A stretch of 60,902 nt of DNA from Desulfobulbus sp. (lineage in GTDB: Bacteria > Desulfobacterota > Desulfobulbia > Desulfobulbales > Desulfobulbaceae): the NCBI GenBank assembly GCA_028684915.1, contig JAQUEZ010000016.1, positions 1-60,902 on the forward strand, written 5' to 3'. How positions within the stretch are numbered: the stretch's first letter is position 1; the number at the start of each line of letters is the position of its first letter. Under the pieces are notes generated by a model that saw only the letters and a program-made list of their open reading frames with translations, had not been told where the DNA came from and did not search any database. Of this stretch, positions 24,268 through 57,156 are shown piece by piece. The position numbers and the translations under genes are program-made.

Positions 24268-27200
24268 ATGAAAACCCGTCTTATAATCGTCTCCATCGCA
24301 GGTGTTGCCGCATACGTTGTGCTCGCCAACTTTAATTCTAAGCTCATCAAGGAATCCTCCTTGCCCAAGGGTAATCCACCCGTGATTGCCCACTTGCAAA
24401 CGCCGACCCCGCCAGCGCCGATTTCGTCCCAGGTAGAACCAGCGCTCCCGGCTCAGGAGCCGCCTTCGGCCAAGAAACCGGCTGCTGCGGTAGAAGAGTC
24501 GCAACCGCAAAAAGTGGTGGTCGAGGGGGAAAAGCAACTCTCGGCACCTACCGAAGTGATTATTGCAGCGGTGGACAATAGTGCCGAAATGAAAAAACTT
24601 GCGCAGGAGTTGGTCACCAAGGAACAACAGATCAGCCAACTGCTCGATGCACAGGAAGCAATCAAAACCAAGTACGAGGAGATGCTGTCCAAAGCGCTAC
24701 AGGAAAGTAAAGTCGACGATAGCCTTGAAGCGACCCTCGCGGCAAAAACAAATGAAATTGAATCCCTCATCACCGACAACAAACGGCTCAACGATGAGCT
24801 GGGTGTCGCCAAGACCGCCATGGGTGAACTCAACAAGACCCTGGACGAGTTCAAGGCTGCCGCTACATCAGCCAAAAAGTCGCTGGTAGAAAAGATAGCG
24901 CTTCTTGGTCAGTCCGATCTGCAGAAATCTCAACAGGAAGCGCAGATCGAGGAGCTGAAAACACAAATTACCACCCTGCAGCAATCCGGTCAGCAGACCG
25001 AGGAGAAGATGCAGGCCATGAGCCAGGAAAACCAGGTACTTTCCGCCAAGCTTGAAGAGATGCGCCAGCAACACAAGCAAAGCGAAGATGCCCTCAAGGC
25101 CGAATTGGAAGCTGCAGCAGCCAAACAAGTGGAGATCACTCAATCGTTGACCACCATCCAGGAGACCCTGACCCAGAAAGAGGCCCAGATCAGTCAACTT
25201 AGCGAGGAAAAACACGCCAAAGAGCTGGCCTATAAAGAAAAGGCCGAAGCGCTCGACAAAACCCTCTATTCCATGCAGGCCCTGCGCCAAGAGATTTCCG
25301 CCCAACCCCAAGCGGTAGCGACTGTGCAGCAGATGCTTGACGCCCGCAATGAGGAGTTGGCTGCATTGAAGGAGAGCACCGCTGCCCAGGTGACCGCTAC
25401 CCAGCAGCAGCTGAGTGAACTCCAGACAACCAGCGCTGAACAGATCAAGGTTTTAACTGAGGAAAAGCAAAGTTTAGGCGATGAATTGGCCAACCTCAAG
25501 CAAAACATCGGCAACAATGAGGAGGAAGTCGCAGGGCTGAAAGCCCTGGCCGATGCCGCGCAAAAGGCCCTTAAGGACAAAGAGGTTCAAGTCGGCCAGC
25601 TTGATCAGCAGCTCAAAGAACGTGTGGCTGAACTTGAAGCCCTAAAAGCAGACGTAGCCAACACGAGTGGGCAAATCAAGCAGAGCCAGGAATCCCAGGA
25701 AAAAAACCTGGCCCTAATCAAGGAACAGGAGAACCGTATTGCCGCGTTCGAGCACCAGTTGCAGGAGCAGCAAAAAGCAAAGGAAACGCTCCAGGCTGAA
25801 CTGAAAAACGTCAACGACCAGTTGCAGGCCGCTAATGCAAAGCAAGCCGAGAGCGACAATGCAGCGAACGCCATCAAACAGGTAGTTGCCAACAAAGAAC
25901 AGCAGATTGCTGAAATGACCAAGGCAACCGAAGAGCTGCACACTGAACTAAAAAACATCAACGTTCAGCTGCAGGCCGCAAATGCAAAAGAAACCGTAAA
26001 CGATAACGCGATCAGTACCTTCAAGCAAACAGTTGCTGACAAAGAACAACAAATCGTTGAATTGAATAAAGCTAAAGAAGCACTCCAAGCTGAGATCAAC
26101 GCTGCAAACGATCAGCTCCAGGCAGTCAACGCAAAACAGACCGAGTCCGACAACACGGTGACCAGCCTCAAACAGGGGTTAAGCGAAAAAGAGCTGCAAA
26201 TCGGCGAGATGAGTAAGGCTACCGAGGCGCTCCAGACTGAGCTTAAAAATGCCGGTGACCAACTGCAGGCCGCAAATACAAAACAGGCGGAAGCAGACAG
26301 CACTGTTACCAACCTCAAACAGACGCTTACCGAAAATGAGCAGCAGATTGCAGCAATGACCCAGGCGGCCGGGGCGCTCCAGACCGAACTCAAAAATGCC
26401 GTTGACCAGTTGCAGGCCGCAAATGCAAAACAGGCGGAAACAGACAACACCGTTACCGACCTCAAACAAGTCCTAACTACCAAAGAACAGCAGATTGCTG
26501 AGATGAGCAAGGCCACCGAAGCGCTCCAGACTGAGCTTAAAAATGCCGGTGACCAGTTACAGGCCGCAAATGCAAAACAGGCAGAAACAGACAACACCGT
26601 TACCGACCTCAAACAAGTCGTAACCGCCAAAGAGCAGCAAATTGCTGAGATGAGCAAGGCCACCGAAGCGCTCCAGACTGAGCTTAAAAACGCCGGTGAC
26701 CAGTTACAGGCCGCAAATGCAAAACAGGCAGAAACAGACAACACCGTTGCCGACCTCAAACAAGTCGTAACCGCCAAAGAGCAGCAAATTGCTGAGATGA
26801 GCAAGGCCACCGAAGCGCTCCAAACTGAGCTTAAAAATGCCGGTGACCAGTTACAGGCCGCAAATGCAAAACAGGCAGAAACAGACAACACTGTTACCAA
26901 CCTCAAACAAGTCCTAACTACCAAAGAACAGCAGATTGCTGAGATGAGCAAGGCCACCGAAGCGCTCCAAACTGAGCTTAAAAATGCCGGTGACCAGTTA
27001 CAGGCCGCAAATGCAAAACAGGCAGAAACAGACAACACCGTTGCCGACCTCAAACAAGTCGTAACCGACAAAGAGCAGCAAATTGCATCAATGACCCAGG
27101 CCGCTGAGGCCCTGCAACAGTCGGTTGCAGAAAAAGAAGGGCAGATTGCGGCTATAAGCAAAACCGGAGAAACACTGCAAGCCGAGTTGAACACCGTCAA

Positions 27201-29139
27201 AGAACAACTCCAGGCGGCCACAGACACGCAGTCTGAGACGCAAAACAACCTGAATACGCTCCAGCAGACTGTAAGCGAGAAAGATCAACTCATCAGCCAA
27301 TTGACCGAGCAGAAATCGGCCAAAGAAAAAGAGCTGGAGGAAAAAGCAGACGCATTGAAAAACGCCATGCTCTCCGTGCAACAGCTGCGCCAAGAGGTTG
27401 AGACACATCCACAGGCTATGGCCAATATGCAACAGATGGTTGAGAGCAAGTCAATTGAACTGCAACAGCTGCAACAGCAATCTGCGGTTAATATCGATGA
27501 ACTCAAAGCGCAACTTGCGACACTGACCAAGACTAGCGAAGAGCAACAAAAAAGCCTAAGCGAATCCCAGGCTGCGGCAACAAATGCCCAGAGCGAGGTC
27601 GAAAAATTGCAGGCTTCCCTGCAAGAGACCCTGGAGAAACTGGCAGCCGCACTCTCTGATAAAGAGCGAGCTAAAGAGATGGCGGCCCAACTCACGGCAG
27701 CGAAGGATGAAAAAATCGGCTTAAGCAGTCAGCTGCAGGCACTTCGTGATGAGAATAAACGTCTTTTGACGATCAAGGCCACTTTTGACGAGCATGAGCA
27801 GGTTGTGGCCGAGGCAAAGGCGCAAATGGCCACTTTTGCCGCCATCCAAGCACAGAACGCAGATCTGACCAAGCAGTTGACAGAAAAAGACACCGCCCTG
27901 GACCAGGCTGCCAAGAAAGCCGAAGAACTGGCGGCTCTCCAGGCGCAACTCGCGGAGTTGACCTCTCAGGTAGAGGCCAGCGCCAGTGGACTCAAACAGA
28001 TGGAAGCAGCAAAGGCCGAGGCTGACATCCAGCTGGCCGCAATCCAAGCCAAGGCTCAGGAGAGTGTAAACCTGAAAAAAGCGCTTGATGAAAAAACTGC
28101 TGCACTTGCCGCGGCCGAGGGCAAGCTGCAGTCCGTGGGGATTTCCACCGAGCAGATTGAGGCGTTGAAGGCCACCTTGGCTCAGAGCGAGCAGGCTAAA
28201 GAACTGGCTGAGAAAAAAGCTGCCGATACCGCATCCGCACTCACCCAACTGAACCACGCCTTAGCTGCAAACAACGACAAGCTTAAAACCGTGGAAAACG
28301 AGCTGACGGCAGCTCAAGAAAAAATCAAGGAACTCAGCGATAAACGGGCCAGCCAGGCCCAAGCTGACCGGGCGGCCGACCTCGAACAGCAGATTGCTAC
28401 CCTCCGCGACCAAATCGCCCAACTGGACAAGAGTGCCACCCAATTGAAGACCGACCTGGATGCGGCGAATGCTACTGCGCAGGCCAAAAGCGATGCTGCA
28501 CAAAACGCAGCCCAGAAGGCAGAAGAACTGCTAGCAGAGAATGAAAACTTACGCAAACAGTTGGAACAGGGCAAGGTTGAAGAGGCCAAGCCACAGCCAG
28601 AGGCTGAAGCAGTGACCCAACCAGAACAACCAGCCTTGGTTGAAGCGAAACCGGTTGAAGCTCCTGCAGCGACTGAGCCGGAAAAACCGACCCTGGTTCT
28701 TGCCGATAAGGACAAAGATGGCGTCGCCGATAACGCTGATCTCTGCGACAACTCCAAGGCCGGAGCCGCAGTAAACGCCCTTGGTTGCCCTGCCGGCAAG
28801 GGGATTGTTATTGAGGGCGTCAACTTTAAATCGGGAACCGCAGTCTTTACCCCGGAATCAGAAAAGCCTCTCAAACAGGTCATTGCAGCCCTCAAAGAAC
28901 AACCCAGTCTGAAGGTCGAAGTGGCTGGGTATACCGACTCGGCCGGTAATGCCCAGTATAATCTGGCCCTGAGTAAACAACGTTCCCAGGCCGTTGCTAC
29001 CTATTTCGGCAACAAGGGGATCGACAAAAATCGTCTGGTCGTCACCGGATACGGGCAGGACAATCCGATTGCCGATAATGGGACCGCCGCTGGACGGCAA
29101 AAGAACCGCAGGGTTGAACTGCATCCGCTGAAGCCCTGA
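24268..29139 (+). CDS. Giant coiled-coil protein with C-terminal OmpA peptidoglycan-binding domain
   Basis: The product is 1623 aa. A hydrophobic N-terminal segment (residues 4-20) acts as an uncleaved anchor or signal. A proline-rich linker (about 30-80) follows, then some 1350 residues of almost pure coiled coil rich in Gln, Lys, Glu and Ala. Near the end a thrombospondin-3-like calcium motif (DKDKDGVADNADLCDN) leads into an OmpA/Pal domain from about residue 1512, with TDSAGNAQYNLALSKQRS and NGTAAGRQKNRRVEL, the peptidoglycan diaminopimelate site. It probably tethers membrane to cell wall over a long distance. Residues about 544-935 are eight near-identical 49-residue repeats (see 25897-27072). 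Function beyond wall binding is unknown; it could be a structural spacer or a cell-shape protein. A strong terminator follows. Confidence 0.85.
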   Translation: MKTRLIIVSIAGVAAYVVLANFNSKLIKESSLPKGNPPVIAHLQTPTPPAPISSQVEPALPAQEPPSAKKPAAAVEESQPQKVVVEGEKQLSAPTEVIIAAVDNSAEMKKLAQELVTKEQQISQLLDAQEAIKTKYEEMLSKALQESKVDDSLEATLAAKTNEIESLITDNKRLNDELGVAKTAMGELNKTLDEFKAAATSAKKSLVEKIALLGQSDLQKSQQEAQIEELKTQITTLQQSGQQTEEKMQAMSQENQVLSAKLEEMRQQHKQSEDALKAELEAAAAKQVEITQSLTTIQETLTQKEAQISQLSEEKHAKELAYKEKAEALDKTLYSMQALRQEISAQPQAVATVQQMLDARNEELAALKESTAAQVTATQQQLSELQTTSAEQIKVLTEEKQSLGDELANLKQNIGNNEEEVAGLKALADAAQKALKDKEVQVGQLDQQLKERVAELEALKADVANTSGQIKQSQESQEKNLALIKEQENRIAAFEHQLQEQQKAKETLQAELKNVNDQLQAANAKQAESDNAANAIKQVVANKEQQIAEMTKATEELHTELKNINVQLQAANAKETVNDNAISTFKQTVADKEQQIVELNKAKEALQAEINAANDQLQAVNAKQTESDNTVTSLKQGLSEKELQIGEMSKATEALQTELKNAGDQLQAANTKQAEADSTVTNLKQTLTENEQQIAAMTQAAGALQTELKNAVDQLQAANAKQAETDNTVTDLKQVLTTKEQQIAEMSKATEALQTELKNAGDQLQAANAKQAETDNTVTDLKQVVTAKEQQIAEMSKATEALQTELKNAGDQLQAANAKQAETDNTVADLKQVVTAKEQQIAEMSKATEALQTELKNAGDQLQAANAKQAETDNTVTNLKQVLTTKEQQIAEMSKATEALQTELKNAGDQLQAANAKQAETDNTVADLKQVVTDKEQQIASMTQAAEALQQSVAEKEGQIAAISKTGETLQAELNTVKEQLQAATDTQSETQNNLNTLQQTVSEKDQLISQLTEQKSAKEKELEEKADALKNAMLSVQQLRQEVETHPQAMANMQQMVESKSIELQQLQQQSAVNIDELKAQLATLTKTSEEQQKSLSESQAAATNAQSEVEKLQASLQETLEKLAAALSDKERAKEMAAQLTAAKDEKIGLSSQLQALRDENKRLLTIKATFDEHEQVVAEAKAQMATFAAIQAQNADLTKQLTEKDTALDQAAKKAEELAALQAQLAELTSQVEASASGLKQMEAAKAEADIQLAAIQAKAQESVNLKKALDEKTAALAAAEGKLQSVGISTEQIEALKATLAQSEQAKELAEKKAADTASALTQLNHALAANNDKLKTVENELTAAQEKIKELSDKRASQAQADRAADLEQQIATLRDQIAQLDKSATQLKTDLDAANATAQAKSDAAQNAAQKAEELLAENENLRKQLEQGKVEEAKPQPEAEAVTQPEQPALVEAKPVEAPAATEPEKPTLVLADKDKDGVADNADLCDNSKAGAAVNALGCPAGKGIVIEGVNFKSGTAVFTPESEKPLKQVIAALKEQPSLKVEVAGYTDSAGNAQYNLALSKQRSQAVATYFGNKGIDKNRLVVTGYGQDNPIADNGTAAGRQKNRRVELHPLKP
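25897..27072 (+). repeat. Tandem array of eight 147-bp units inside the coiled-coil gene
   Basis: Units start at 25897, 26044, 26191, 26338, 26485, 26632, 26779 and 26926, each exactly 147 bp (49 codons, seven heptads). A degenerate 168-bp unit of eight heptads (25729-25896) precedes them and a partial unit follows at 27073. The last four full units are nearly identical even at silent sites. Their joints come in two types (GTCCTAACTACCAAAGAAC before 26485 and 26926; GTCGTAACCGMCAAAGAGC before 26632, 26779 and 27073), suggesting a three-unit, 441-bp block duplication. Confidence 0.92.
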
Positions 29140-30655: not shown

Positions 30656-30755
30656 GATGGACTCGTAAAAAGGCCATCATATTCTGAAAGATGGCGAAGT
30701 AAAAACACAGATATACGAAGAGCAGCGTTTTTTTCGACGCCATCTTCGTTGACAT
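30656..30755. repeat. Dispersed repeat family A, copy 2 (left half)
   Basis: The left half of the element is kept: GGATGGACTCGTAAAAAGG, a GTAAAAACACAGATATACGA block and GCAGCGTTTTTTTCG, each closely matching copy 3 at 46859. The central CATAC/GTATG and GCGTC/GACGC hairpins and the right end are missing. Instead AAGATGGCG (30688-30696) pairs with CGCCATCTT (30738-30746), so this shortened copy still closes into one hairpin. The surrounding 30577-31024 gap holds no gene. Confidence 0.75.
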
Positions 30756-30861: not shown

Positions 30862-31027
30862 TAAGGGCCGCAGGAAAAAATAATTATCCAATTCTGCTTG
30901 TCTTTCGGCCCGGCTACCGCGTTGCCTTAACTGGTGAATATGCTTGATATTCACCAGTTAAGGCGCCTTGTATCCGAACCGAAATCCGGCGCATTATTCG
31001 AATACTCTTTTCTTTCCCCGACCCTTA
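30862..31027 (-). repeat. Structured repeat family B, copy 1
   Basis: This is an inverted copy of 45616-45781, both about 166 bp. Read on the minus strand it begins with the TAA stop codon of the DUF445 gene and the block TAAGGGTCGGGGAAAGAAAA. It contains an 18-bp hairpin, GCCTTAACTGGTGAATAT (30924-30941) with its partner 30947-30964 around loop CAAGC (minus-strand reading), and ends in CCCTTAA. The two outer thirds are themselves imperfect inverted repeats, so the whole unit can fold as one long hairpin. Confidence 0.85.
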
Positions 31028-32629
31028 CAAAAACTCCACCAGGACCAGATTGATCAGGCCAAGCAAGAACCCCAGAAAGGCGCCGAATAGATTGATATAC
31101 TTGAACTGTTCTTCCATAATGGAGAGCAGTAACCGCTCAAGCTGCAAGAGATCCAGGCTATCGACTTTCTCGGTCACCAATCGTTTAAGATTCAACGATT
31201 CGACCACCCCCGGGACTTCCTGCAAGAGCATCCGGTTGACCATAAGCGTGAGTGCAGTATTTAAGGCTCGGCGCACACCATGGGGCACAAGGTTATACAG
31301 CAGACCAATCGGTCGATTAAGCAGACCGTCAACCATAGAGGTCAGCATGGAATTGACCAACCGCTCTGTTTTATGGGAACGGAGCAAGGTGACCACCTCA
31401 CGGATGAATACTTCGCGAAGCTCTCCCCCCTGTTCATCGGCAAAGAATTTTTGCCCCAAGGCGGCAAAGCTCAACTGCCCGCCATCAATGAGATCCTCCA
31501 TGCCGACATGGACCAGGGCACTGATCCCGTTGAGGGCTCCTTCCTCCTGAAGTAGCCCCAAAAGATGGCCAGCGCCCTCACGGCTCAACCTCGTGAGGTC
31601 CTCATCCGTTACCTTGGCAAGCAACTCGGCAACCGGCCTGGCAAGGAGATCATCGATGGCCTTATCCATCACCGCCTGCATCCGTACCTGGATTTCCGGG
31701 CTGGAAAACCAGGCGACAAGATCAGCCTCTTTCTCCCCGAGGTATTCGCCGATCTTCTGTTCCAGGGTATTCTTCTCGAGAAATCCCCGCGCCATAGCCC
31801 CCATGGGGCCTAAGGAATCGAGGAAATGATCCACTCCGCCCAAAACTCCGGAAATCACCTGGGCCCGGATCAGAGGGTCTGCCACCTGGCGCCCCATGCC
31901 CTCCAGGATCTGGGTGGAATGCTCCCGGACAAAAGCCTTGATCAGCGGCACCATTGCTTGCGGAACCAGATCAGCAAGCGTTGTTCCCTGAGCCGCTGAT
32001 GTACGCAAACCCTGGGCCAAGGCATCGCCCAACCACACCCCCACCTGTTCTCCCTGCAGTAGATCCCGGATGATTTCATCGAGAAAAAGATACAAACCAC
32101 GACGGTTTTCCGGGGCCAAGATTGCATTGATCTCCAGCTCCGCCAGGGTATCGAAACGGTTGTTGATCGAGGCCCGTAGTTGCTCTTCAAACTCTGCACC
32201 GGCCAGATAGTTGTTCACCCCATCACTGAGCCGGTATTTCAGCGTTTTTACCCCAACCTTGAAGTAGGCTTTGAACTTTCGCGGAATCTCCTCACCAATG
32301 GGGCCAAGATCTCGCAGCATGATTTCACGAATCCGCCGCTCGATCAAATTGGCCAGATGTTCCTGAAAAGGTTCCTCGGAAATGGCCGCACCGATGTCCC
32401 TGCTGGTCAACAGATGGCGCCCCACCATTTCGCCGATATTCTCCGCCAGGACATGCCGTTTTGAGGGAATGACCCCGGGGGTCATCGGCAGCTGAAGCCC
32501 GAAAACGAACCAGGGTTCAAGGGGACGAAACAGCATACGGATGGCCACTTTGTTGGTTAGATAGCCGATAGAGGCGCCGATACAGGGATGGGCCAAGGTG
32601 ATCAACAGGGAGGTATCAAGGGCAAACAC
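31025..32629 (-). CDS. DUF445 family membrane protein
   Basis: The product is 534 aa from a GTG at 32629 with AGGT upstream; a TTG at 32674 would add 15 residues and overlap the gph stop. The N-terminal helix and GYLTNKVAIRMLFRPLEP, followed by GVIPSKRHVLAENIGEMVG, are the DUF445 (YjiN/YheB-like) signature. A long amphipathic helical middle contains repeated EHLANLIERRIRE-type blocks, and a C-terminal hydrophobic helix ends LGLINLVLVEFL. Predicted topology is N- and C-terminal membrane anchors around a large soluble helical part. The function of the family is unknown. The stop codon coincides with the edge of repeat B. Confidence 0.85.
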   Translation of the reverse strand: MFALDTSLLITLAHPCIGASIGYLTNKVAIRMLFRPLEPWFVFGLQLPMTPGVIPSKRHVLAENIGEMVGRHLLTSRDIGAAISEEPFQEHLANLIERRIREIMLRDLGPIGEEIPRKFKAYFKVGVKTLKYRLSDGVNNYLAGAEFEEQLRASINNRFDTLAELEINAILAPENRRGLYLFLDEIIRDLLQGEQVGVWLGDALAQGLRTSAAQGTTLADLVPQAMVPLIKAFVREHSTQILEGMGRQVADPLIRAQVISGVLGGVDHFLDSLGPMGAMARGFLEKNTLEQKIGEYLGEKEADLVAWFSSPEIQVRMQAVMDKAIDDLLARPVAELLAKVTDEDLTRLSREGAGHLLGLLQEEGALNGISALVHVGMEDLIDGGQLSFAALGQKFFADEQGGELREVFIREVVTLLRSHKTERLVNSMLTSMVDGLLNRPIGLLYNLVPHGVRRALNTALTLMVNRMLLQEVPGVVESLNLKRLVTEKVDSLDLLQLERLLLSIMEEQFKYINLFGAFLGFLLGLINLVLVEFL

Positions 32630-32651
32630 GGTGGTGTACCTACAATTGAGG

Positions 32652-33317
32652 TTAACAGGGAGTGGACAAAGCAATGGTGGGCAGTTCCCGGGGATGGCTA
32701 ATCAGCCAGGCCGCACCCGCTTCTTGAAGCTCATCAGCGCCGCGGAAGCCCCACAGCACGCCGACCGGATCCATACCGGCAGAACGGGCGGTGCGCATAT
32801 CAATGGACGTATCCCCCACATAGAGAACCTCTTTGGGCCTGCAATTCAACCGCTGAGCAGCCTCTAGGGCTGCTGCAGGATCCGGTTTTTTGGCAATGCC
32901 CGGCCGTTGACCGAAAATCGGCGCAAAGGGCCACTGGGGCAGGAGTTTCTCCACGCAAAGTTGGGTGAAATCGTCGGGTTTATTGGAGAGAATAGCCAGC
33001 CGCAAACCACATGCAACCAGATGATCAAGCATTTCCGGGATGCCTGCATAGGGCGAGCTGCAATCATGCCAGTTCTCGGCATACTCGCGTTGAAAATCAG
33101 CCACGGTGGATGCAATCCGCTCCGGCTGACGATGGCTCGGGGGCAGGATCCGCTCAACCAGGGTGGCAATACCATCGCCGACAAAATAACGGTAGGCATC
33201 GACAGGGTGAGTAGGCAGGGACAGACCAGTAAGTACCCGGTTCCCAGCGTTGGCCAGATCCTCCAGGGTATCCAATAACGTCCCGTCCAGGTCAAACAGG
33301 ACCGCTTTGTAACGCAT
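32652..33317 (-). CDS. gph: HAD-superfamily phosphatase, phosphoglycolate phosphatase type
   Basis: The product is 221 aa. HAD motif I is FDLDGT (catalytic Asp9, acid/base Asp11), motif II ILSNKP, motif III lysine in AKKPDP, and motif IV VGDTSIDM. An alpha-helical cap (about residues 16-85) is of the Gph/PGMB class. It dephosphorylates phosphoglycolate or a similar small phosphate ester; specificity within HAD enzymes cannot be fixed by sequence alone. It is 22 bp upstream of the DUF445 gene on the same strand and divergent from ftsE across a 312-bp spacer. Confidence 0.85.
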   Translation of the reverse strand: MRYKAVLFDLDGTLLDTLEDLANAGNRVLTGLSLPTHPVDAYRYFVGDGIATLVERILPPSHRQPERIASTVADFQREYAENWHDCSSPYAGIPEMLDHLVACGLRLAILSNKPDDFTQLCVEKLLPQWPFAPIFGQRPGIAKKPDPAAALEAAQRLNCRPKEVLYVGDTSIDMRTARSAGMDPVGVLWGFRGADELQEAGAAWLISHPRELPTIALSTPC

Positions 33318-44250: not shown

Positions 44251-45618
44251 ATGCCCGAAACCATCCTTATCATAGACGACGAAAAAGCCATTTGCGAAAG
44301 CCTGGCCGGTATTCTCTCCGACGAAGGATTCAGTCCTCTGCTTGCCCATTCGGCTGAAGAGGGGCTGCAAACCCTGGATGAAAAGGATGTCCGTCTGGTT
44401 CTTTTGGATATCTGGCTTCCGGGGATGGACGGCTTGGAGGCGCTCAAACTGATCAAGCAACGCTTTACCCTGCCAGTGATCATGATTTCGGGCCACGGCA
44501 CCATTGACACCGCAGTGCAGGCCACCCGCAGCGGCGCCTTTGACTTCATCGAAAAACCGCTTTCCTACGACAAGACCATCCTCTCGATCAAAAAGGGGTT
44601 ACAGTTGGCCCAGTTGGAGCGCGATAACCAAGTGCTGCGCGAAAGCCGCCCGGTCCTCAAGCAGATCACCGGATCCAGTTCCCATGTGAGTATGCTCCGC
44701 CAGCAAATCGAACGGGTGGCGCCAACCGATGCCTGGGTTTTGATACGCGGCGGCCATGGGACAGGCAAGGAGCTGGTGGCCCAAACCATCCATCGCCATT
44801 CCCTGCGGGCCAAACATCCGATGGTTGCGGTGAACTGTGCTGCTATCCCGGAGGAACTGATCGAATCCGAGCTCTTCGGCCACGTCAAAGGAGCCTTCAC
44901 CGGAGCCACGGAAACCAAAAAAGGCAAGTTTGACCTGGCCAACGACTCGACCCTCTTTCTTGATGAAATTGGCGACATGAGCTTGAAGAGTCAGGCCAAA
45001 GTCCTACGTATTCTCCAGGAGCAGCGTTTTGAGCGGGTGGGTGGCTCACGAACCATTGAGGTCGATGTCCGCGTGCTGGCCGCGACCAACAAAAACTTGG
45101 AAGAAGAGATCGAGCGGGGCAACTTCCGAGCTGATCTCTTCTACCGGCTCAATGTGGTGCCGATCGAGGTGCCGGACTTGAATGATCGCCGTGAGGACAT
45201 CCCCCTTTTGGTCGCTGACTTTGTGCACCAATTCAGTAAAAGGGGGATCGGTCGGAAGCAGTTCGCCTCCGAATCCCTGCAACTCTTACAACAACACAAC
45301 TGGCCGGGCAATGTTCGCGAGCTGCGCAACCTAATCGAGCGGTTAGTGATTATGACTCCGGGAAATACAATTCAGGCCGAAGATGTGCGTCTTTTCCTCG
45401 GCAGCCCCCCTTCGGCCCCCCCATTACTATCCCAAGATAGGGCCGCCTCATACAATACCCTCCCCTTCAAGGAGGCCCGGCGACGTTTCGAAACCGATTA
45501 CCTCAATGCCAAGCTGGCAGAAAACGACGGCAATATCACCAAGACAGCGGAACAGATCGGGATGGAACGCAGCCATCTGCATAAAAAAGTCAAGGCCCTG
45601 GGCATAGCGGTGAAATAA
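44251..45618 (+). CDS. ntrX: NtrX-like sigma-54-dependent response regulator
   Basis: The product is 455 aa. A receiver domain has phospho-acceptor Asp53 in LLDIWLPGMDG. The AAA+ sigma-54 activator domain has Walker A GGHGTGKE (usually GESGTGKE), the GAFTGA loop that contacts sigma-54, and Walker B TLFLDEIGDM. A Fis-type HTH ends the chain (NITKTAEQIGMERSHLHKKV). It should activate sigma-54 promoters when phosphorylated by the upstream kinase. Targets are unknown. The TAA stop (45616-45618) is also the first triplet of repeat B copy 2. Confidence 0.92.
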   Translation: MPETILIIDDEKAICESLAGILSDEGFSPLLAHSAEEGLQTLDEKDVRLVLLDIWLPGMDGLEALKLIKQRFTLPVIMISGHGTIDTAVQATRSGAFDFIEKPLSYDKTILSIKKGLQLAQLERDNQVLRESRPVLKQITGSSSHVSMLRQQIERVAPTDAWVLIRGGHGTGKELVAQTIHRHSLRAKHPMVAVNCAAIPEELIESELFGHVKGAFTGATETKKGKFDLANDSTLFLDEIGDMSLKSQAKVLRILQEQRFERVGGSRTIEVDVRVLAATNKNLEEEIERGNFRADLFYRLNVVPIEVPDLNDRREDIPLLVADFVHQFSKRGIGRKQFASESLQLLQQHNWPGNVRELRNLIERLVIMTPGNTIQAEDVRLFLGSPPSAPPLLSQDRAASYNTLPFKEARRRFETDYLNAKLAENDGNITKTAEQIGMERSHLHKKVKALGIAVK

Positions 45619-45781
45619 GGGTCGGGGAAAGAAAAAAATATTCGAATAATGCGCCGGATTTCGGTTCGGGCACAAGGCGCTTTAACTGATGAATATCAAG
45701 CATATTCATCAGTTAAAGCAACGCTGTAGCCGGGCCGAAAGACAAGCAGAATTGAATAATTATTTTTTCCCGCGCCCCTAA
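45616..45781 (+). repeat. Structured repeat family B, copy 2
   Basis: About 166 bp, inverted relative to 30862-31027. It starts on the ntrX stop codon with TAAGGGTCGGGGAAAGAAAA and ends CCCCTAA. The central hairpin, GCTTTAACTGATGAATAT (45679-45696) with 45702-45719 around loop CAAGC, has an 18-bp perfect stem. Compared with copy 1 the hairpin differs at four bases that form two base pairs, both preserved. The element accounts for most of the ntrX-hemB spacer. The remaining 95 bp before hemB show nothing I can name. Confidence 0.87.
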
Positions 45782-46860: not shown

Positions 46861-47020
46861 TGGACTCGTCAAAAGTCCATCACACTCTAAGAGATGGCTA
46901 GGTAAAAACATAGATATACAAGAAGCAGTGTTTTTTCCGGATCGAAGGCATACATAAGGTATGTCGAGCGTCGGGAAAAACGCTGCGACGCAGCAGATCG
47001 AAGTTTTTACGAGACCATCA
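46859..47020. repeat. Dispersed repeat family A, copy 3 (most complete)
   Basis: The fullest copy. Terminal inverted repeats GATGGACTCGTCAAAA and TTTTTACGAGACCATC bound a core of mini-hairpins: GTCCATC with GATGGAC-like arms, CATAC/GTATG, and GCGTC/GACGC. It overlaps the last two bases of the hemB stop codon and precedes the hemB terminator, so it is transcribed in the hemB 3' untranslated region. Confidence 0.85.
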
Positions 47021-47059
47021 AGGATAATTTCCGTAAAAATAGCTGCGGCAATGATCAGG

Positions 47060-56959: not shown

Positions 56960-57156
56960 TAAAGGCATGCATCAGATATGTCGAGTGTCGGGCAAAATAC
57001 TGCAACGTAGAAGATCTTTTTATATTTACAATATTTGATGGTCTCGTAAAAAGTCGAAAACTGAACGCCTATACACTACATGTAGATGTTGATCGTGCAC
57101 GAGGATCATATATATTGAGTATAAATCTTCGCACCGAGACTTTTTACGACTTCATC
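56960..57156. repeat. Dispersed repeat family A, copy 4 (degenerate, compound)
   Basis: The first part (56960-57020) is a decayed core: GGCATGCATCAGATATGTCG followed by GTGTCGGGCAAAATACTGC, matching copies 1 and 3 with many substitutions. The second part (57037-57156) has good terminal inverted repeats, GATGGTCTCGTAAAAAGTCG and CGAGACTTTTTACGACTTC, around an unrelated centre. It sits directly upstream of argC. Confidence 0.65.

Follow-up and report, generated by a model that had tools for sequence, protein, structure and literature searches.

The closest described kind of element to the one reported here is YPAL/RU-2 of Yersinia, reportedly the subject of a study by De Gregorio in 2006; the comparison was made on its description in outline. 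Tourist-like MITEs duplicate a TWA target, and we know of no strand-specific fold in these eukaryotic elements. REP and REPIN sequences carry a GTAG or CGTC tag and do not duplicate their target.

YPAL/RU-2 is summarized as 168 bp long, palindromic, mobile and intergenic, with both empty and filled sites (PMC2229807, PMC2267715), and its stem-loop is given as conserved, with RNAz P=1.00 (PMC2267715). The duplications listed for it are 3 to 26 bp, spanning or adjoining dyads (PMC2229807, PMC2267715). By the same summary, 57 of 92 stem-loop repeat families have a common predicted structure (PMC2267715); fold conservation alone is, therefore, no novelty among such repeats. The IS1031 group of the IS5 family is outlined as having a TNA preference and an exclusive 3-bp direct repeat (PMC12016507).

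The hairpins studied here lie in a window of 60,902 nt, which is the whole stretch of DNA that was analysed. They are best explained as a whole as two copies of a MITE-like palindrome that is mobile but non-autonomous, and we put the probability of this reading at roughly 0.8. The element occurs in multiple copies and its core, GGG...CCC, is about 160 nt long. A 3-bp TWA target is duplicated at its ends, and sister genomes have orthologous sites without it.

Two inverted copies in the window

The original prediction described two inverted copies of about 166 bp, and both are real (Table 1). They align without gaps and are identical at 153 of 166 positions. Four of the 13 differing bases are in the inner stem, where they make two changed pairs, 66/102 and 74/94 (i+j=168), from T-A to C-G and from A-T to G-C. 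The loop CAAGC is the same in both copies. These differences had been predicted as two exchanged base pairs around a constant loop, and recomputation gave the same result. The inner stem contains none of the other nine differences, which are at element positions 21, 23, 55, 56, 110, 140, 156, 160 and 165. Each copy was folded by RNAfold into one long imperfect hairpin, with energies of -74.8 and -81.6 kcal/mol for the two copies; the outer arms pair too, as had been claimed, and the entire element folds, not the centre alone.

Both copies also have their left edge on the TAA stop of the upstream ORF, in agreement with the prediction. The right edge that the copies were said to share is only partly shared: both end in CCC, but the trimer that follows is TAA in copy A and TTA in copy B. 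For the gene names ntrX and DUF445 we follow the original prediction, and the ORFs alone were verified in this analysis.

Table 1. Coordinates of the element copies, their parts and the adjoining ORFs in the window.
Feature	Position	Strand	Remarks
Element copy A	45616..45781	+	166 nt; imperfect palindrome over whole length; trimers TAA and TAA
Element copy B	30862..31027	-	166 nt; inverted relative to copy A; trimers TAA and TTA, not matching
Apical hairpin, copy A	45679..45719	+	18-bp stem, loop CAAGC; element positions 64-104; RNAfold
Apical hairpin, copy B	30924..30964	-	Stem of copy A with two changed pairs
Left trimer TAA, copy A	45616..45618	+	Target duplication; doubles as stop of upstream ORF
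Right trimer TAA, copy A	45779..45781	+	Second half of 3-bp target duplication
ORF named ntrX	44251..45618	+	Stop is target trimer of copy A
ORF named DUF445	31025..32674	-	Stop is left trimer of copy B
AAAGACAAGCA, right-arm conserved motif	45738..45748	+	Sets element orientation; columns mostly (nearly) invariant in A1
TGCGCCGGATTT, left-arm conserved motif	45650..45661	+	Faces the AAAGACAAGCA loop; A1 and 29 representatives

The window contains other repeats. A second family (GTAAAAACACAG..., TTTTTACGAGACCATC...) is found at 125-247, 30699-30738, 46898-47020, 47004-47044 and 57012-57052, with up to 88% identity over 123 nt. A 147-nt tandem repeat array occupies 25787-27115, within an ORF of 1,623 aa (24268-29139), and was seen as eight overlapping 300-nt register copies with a spacing of 147.

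Distribution of the family

A covariance model, R1, was built from 23 copies, namely the two in the window and 21 from relatives. Copy A, itself a seed of R1, matched the model with 146.1 bits over positions 1-166 of 166, and copy B, also a seed, with 143.4 bits. The search of relatives for further members, which had been proposed as a check, found them: R1 matched 31 of 73 genomes of the nearest family (E<=1e-4), 84 of 257 genomes of the order (E<=1e-6) and 16 of 390 genomes of a phylum sample (E<=1e-8). Using blastn, copy A matched 11 of the 73 family genomes at E<=0.01, with strong, multi-copy matches in five (G406, G408, G410, G437 and G457) and weak matches in six. The arm pattern with up to three mismatches occurred 205 times in G437 (a 5.8-Mb genome), where a single copy may score twice, once per arm, compared to 0 for the reversed pattern. 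Scoring covered only part of the first-look candidates, which makes all copy numbers minimum values, and the copies used in the statistics were the better-scoring ones and not a random draw. The strong covariation described below, the many copies in relatives and the 205 to 0 ratio of arm-pattern matches place the repeat far beyond chance. G284, the nearest genome by its DUF445 protein (59% identity, among 395 sampled genomes of the phylum), had no R1 match.

An exact 22-mer scan of genome contigs found no match. One viral contig contained an 18-mer, for which the alignment was only 19 nt and was taken as chance; no viral contig matched a 23-mer of the hairpin tip, and plasmid and phage collections gave no match for copy A or for a relative's copy. 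When Rfam was searched at the gathering score, the whole window contained nothing except a tRNA, and five loci of relatives gave no match. At a loose threshold, six sub-threshold miRNA and snoRNA hits were obtained with copy A. No description of this repeat family was recognised among the papers listed by literature searches, judging by titles and the opening of abstracts. We file the element as a new family of a known kind of palindromic mobile repeat, with an unusual strand-specific signal. A large family of such repeats, reaching about a third of the genomes searched in one order and without an Rfam match, is thereby added.

Anatomy and subfamilies

The core starts with GGG and ends with CCC or a near form, and is 156-165 nt long in the 21 relatives. 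Its conserved parts are the arms and an asymmetric loop, in which TGCGCCGGATTT stands opposite AAAAGACAAGCA; AAAGACAAGCA is conserved across 29 representatives. A tip near GCGCATAGC...GCTATGTAAC is found in many of these but not in the window copies. A minor subfamily starts with GTGTC, and four of its copies (L133, L138, L141 and L245) have CTAG at either end, which makes a 2-bp and a 4-bp duplication indistinguishable.

Another form is found in G562 and G563 (L329-L333, L335 and L341). It has a 186-nt core with an additional 27-nt hairpin in one arm, and its trimers are identical in 5 of 7 copies, once as TGA/TGA. This sub-lineage even gained a side hairpin yet stayed mobile.

The element is also nested inside another repeat in G562 and was amplified along with it: six contigs (L274-L279) are alike in about 110 nt preceding the element and in 88 nt following it, and diverge beyond. 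Copies near contig ends in this genome were considered as an IS end, which was rejected on account of this nesting. At about 900-1080 of L276, a reading frame apparently runs at its 3' end into half an element, from which its last codons would come.

Target duplication and empty sites

The original prediction offered insertion at TA, of the Tc1/IS630 type, as one reading of the element's edges. To examine the edges, 142 copies were oriented, of which 125 of the GGG type were analysed and 17 of the GTG type were set aside. The left and right trimers were identical in 80 of the 125, compared to a mean of 39.9 and a maximum of 58 in 20,000 shuffled pairings; at least three insertions common to G406 and G408 (L127/L212, L096/L120 and L228/L222) are counted twice in these data. 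The matching trimers were 46 TAA, 31 TTA, one TCA, one TAT and one CAA. Left-right identity was 0.88, 0.75 and 0.87 at the three trimer positions, versus 0.15-0.29 at the ten flanking positions compared. Unlike trimers were seen in the other 45 copies, and copy B is unlike too.

Six genomes were searched with the joined flanks of eight G408 copies. G406 has the L110 site without an interruption (95.5% identity), and this site contains a single TAA. Empty sites with both sides covered were also found in G406 and its relatives for L210, where the trimer is TAA, and for L213 and L216, where it has drifted. The match for L123 covered essentially the right side only, and L095, L106 and L211 had no match across the junction in the six genomes.

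The concordance of the trimers and the empty site with a single TAA show that the duplicated target is 3 bp, TWA and rarely other, and that the insertion is not at TA. A TA-inserting MITE of the Tc1/IS630 kind, as described for RUP, ERIC or NEMIS, would account for the TA or near form seen at most edges, and the four CTAG-ended copies of the minor subfamily fit a 2- or 4-bp duplication. This reading is hardly credible for the family, since, in 94 of 125 copies, the left and right trimers agree at the middle base, and a single TAA is present at the L110 empty site; a 2-bp TA duplication fails in the main subfamily. The more general proposal of a MITE-like insertion was borne out. Like bacterial MITEs, the element is multi-copy and below about 200 bp, too short for a transposase gene by length alone, and it has a target-site duplication and empty sites in sister genomes. 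The element is, in short, an insertion of the MITE-like kind that duplicates a TWA target of 3 bp.

Fold conservation and strand bias across lineages

A covariance model of the family had been suggested as a check on the fold, and strong covariation was found. The 23-copy alignment had 85.6% of cells paired, versus 41-48% with slid partners. Changes on both sides were present in 34 of 71 pairs (shuffle mean 25.5; 34 was reached by 1 of 500 shuffles), and 25 of these 34 pairs are in the inner helix of 38 pairs.

The fold also favours one strand. A GACAAGCA-type motif was present on the model strand in 78 of 142 copies and solely on the other strand in 0, with no recognised form in 64. The strand defined by the motif folds better in 73 of the 78 copies, and among 30 representatives (29 genomes and copy A) it folds better in 29, the exception being G505. 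The strand test was conducted with 29 sequences (27 genomes and both window copies), which were aligned by MAFFT without structure, and pairs were called by Watson-Crick votes alone; two of the 30 representatives, L145 and L146, are longer forms and were excluded. Across genomes, 132 cells were G-T and 35 were A-C. By column, 32 had G-T only, 9 had A-C only and 13 had both (32 vs 9, p=0.0004, with counts that are less independent than the p value assumes because of shared descent). Three or four Watson-Crick types were found in 21 of 64 pairs.

G-T and A-C mirror each other between the strands and, therefore, the bias points to a folded single strand. Deamination alone is not sufficient because the C-to-T and A-to-G routes both contribute. 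Lineages seem to keep one specific strand foldable even where individual inserted copies decay.

A strand-specific fold that is maintained at the lineage level could also be produced if the element transposed as a single-stranded hairpin by a Y1/RAYT enzyme, as REP/REPIN do. We regard this as extremely unlikely since a target duplication exists, and the copy ends examined have neither the GTAG nor the CGTC tag that marks such repeats.

Possible decay of settled copies within genomes

The bias was also examined within single genomes. The largest set, 42 copies in G437, had 68 G-T and 61 A-C departures from the majority pair (p=0.6), a significantly weaker bias than that across genomes (Fisher p=2e-6). 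The G-T to A-C ratio was 23:6 in G457 (20 copies) and 26:11 in G408 (16 copies), and shared subfamily changes may contribute to this lean. Pooling the three genomes gave 117:78 (p=0.006). Individual G437 copies, thus, look near neutral in place, and those of G457 and G408 do not; neutrality in place is a statement about G437 alone because the other two genomes and the pooled set lean to G-T.

The original prediction had interpreted the paired changes as selection on the fold rather than decay. This holds for lineages, which keep the fold (132:35), and not for single G437 copies, which look neutral (68:61). Together, these data suggest that selection for a folded single strand acts while the element proliferates and not on copies in place.

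Another possible explanation is that the paired changes are mutational: by template switching, one arm of an imperfect palindrome would be copied over the other, and no selection would be needed. The 18 Watson-Crick double changes in G437, compared to about 7 doubles of any kind expected by chance, are in line with it. Template switching predicts no strand bias, however, in conflict with the 132:35 ratio across genomes, and it would erase the conserved asymmetric loop. We consider it distinctly unlikely as the source of the paired changes. The contrast of a lineage bias with unbiased decay in one genome provides a test of a long-standing question, namely whether the hairpins of bacterial MITEs serve the host or their own spread.

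Stop codons and gene context

Since both window copies begin on stop codons, a 3'-UTR RNA element had been proposed as the other reading. Here, the hairpin would be kept for stabilising or terminating the upstream transcript, as proposed for YPAL. Genes were called as longest ORFs in place of a trained gene finder, for the orientation data as well, and the stop of the incoming gene was overlapped exactly by 16 of the 65 left edges and 9 of the 54 right edges. The 78 clean copies were then compared to the target sites available to them: 44 face at least one stop, 18 face none and 16 were dropped (11 within an ORF of the empty site and 5 missing a neighbour on one side). Nine of the 44 were on the stop, versus 5.5 +/- 1.8 expected if insertions are spread evenly over the TWA sites of the gap. 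Targeting of stop codons as such was abandoned after this control.

A TAA stop is a TWA target and the duplication restores the stop; therefore, no extra rule is needed. Insertion into a TAA stop would be silent, as the duplicated trimer would regenerate it. The stop-codon edge is mostly a by-product of target choice, with a slight excess possible. This gives a simple account of such repeats on stop codons: once a TAA or TGA target is duplicated, a stop is again in place.

The 142 copies comprised 41 in tandem sense, 31 in tandem antisense, 32 between divergent genes, 23 between convergent genes, 5 inside an ORF and 10 unassigned. The near-random orientation (41:31 in tandem pairs, p=0.29) and the copies between divergent genes argue against a 3'-UTR role, as does the stop overlap, which is close to the expectation from target sites. 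The better fold of one strand and the lean to G-T in G457 and G408 would fit such a role, and the G437 copies have no such bias. Overall, we find the 3'-UTR reading highly unlikely.

The C-termini of the two upstream proteins were compared with those of relatives, which had been suggested as a check. Nine of ten DUF445 loci were aligned, with L091 left out for an internal stop. Eight of the nine orthologues end at the column of the window protein, L089 ends one residue earlier, and the GACAAGCA motif is absent from the 220 nt past the stop in all nine. The NtrX comparison was uninformative because distant relatives differ at the C-terminus by a few residues. The best NtrX relatives were at most 59% identical in the best segment (contig scan, best 80 of the matches listed), and rows L082 and L083 were left out, L083 being a repeat of L003.

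Search for an autonomous partner and a possible mechanism

No autonomous element with these ends was found at PF01609 loci in 10 genomes, at PF13359 loci in 4, or at facing and solo arms. For PF01609, 30 loci of 34 places listed were examined and had no matching ends; one had a motif-like match away from the gene, which was judged to be chance. The PF13359 search gave a single IS5-like gene, with ends that differ from those of the element. Facing arms in G437 were two separate copies with no transposase enclosed. Nine ORFs adjoin four solo arms in G562 and G563; none has a transposase domain, and two are without any Pfam domain. G410 contains an IS5-like element (L269, 97-1393) with a DDE_Tnp_1 transposase and 17-nt inverted repeats, AGGGTATCTTGAAAAAT. 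It has (A)GGG...CCC(T) ends and a TAA on its left edge, and the repeats are otherwise different.

The duplication of a 3-bp TNA target, mostly TAA and TTA, is the kind made by the IS1031 group of IS5. The element is most likely mobilised in trans, by a DDE transposase that would target TNA in this way. The G-T and A-C pattern suggests that a copy may need one particular strand to fold, whether as RNA or as single-stranded DNA, in order to found new copies. If so, lineages would keep the fold for that reason: settled copies would decay nearly freely, and lineages still producing copies would be under selection for the fold. The folded strand could be a transcript that aids spread, or single-stranded DNA that is recognised in transposition. 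The full scheme, in which the element spreads via a folded single strand (RNA or ssDNA), selection acts on the structure of that strand in proliferation alone and integration is staggered by 3 bp at TWA, is a tentative one and, in our estimate, rather unlikely as a whole.

Comparison with known systems

The element is like the REPIN/REP-RAYT system (PMC3116915, PMC2817692, PMC3733652) in being a hairpin repeat dispersed in the genome. Unlike that system, it duplicates its target, and its hairpin base bears neither a GTAG nor a CGTC tag. ERIC, RUP and Correia/NEMIS are summarized as small palindromic mobile repeats of less than 200 bp, as is the element, but they have TA at their ends, whereas a TWA trimer is duplicated here (PMC2229807). 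The 3-bp TNA-type duplication is like that given for the IS1031 group (PMC12016507). Unlike that group, the element has no transposase gene, and a search of the genomes and families covered here found no IS with these ends. The Tourist-like MITEs, mPing among them (PMC4561436), are non-autonomous, as is the element. They share with it a TWA-type 3-bp duplication. Compared to YPAL, as far as its summary extends, the element duplicates 3 bp of TWA without an orientation preference, and its stop-codon excess is slight and non-significant (9/44 vs 5.5 +/- 1.8). It is like YPAL/RU-2, by the same summary, in its length, its palindrome, its mobility and its conserved fold.
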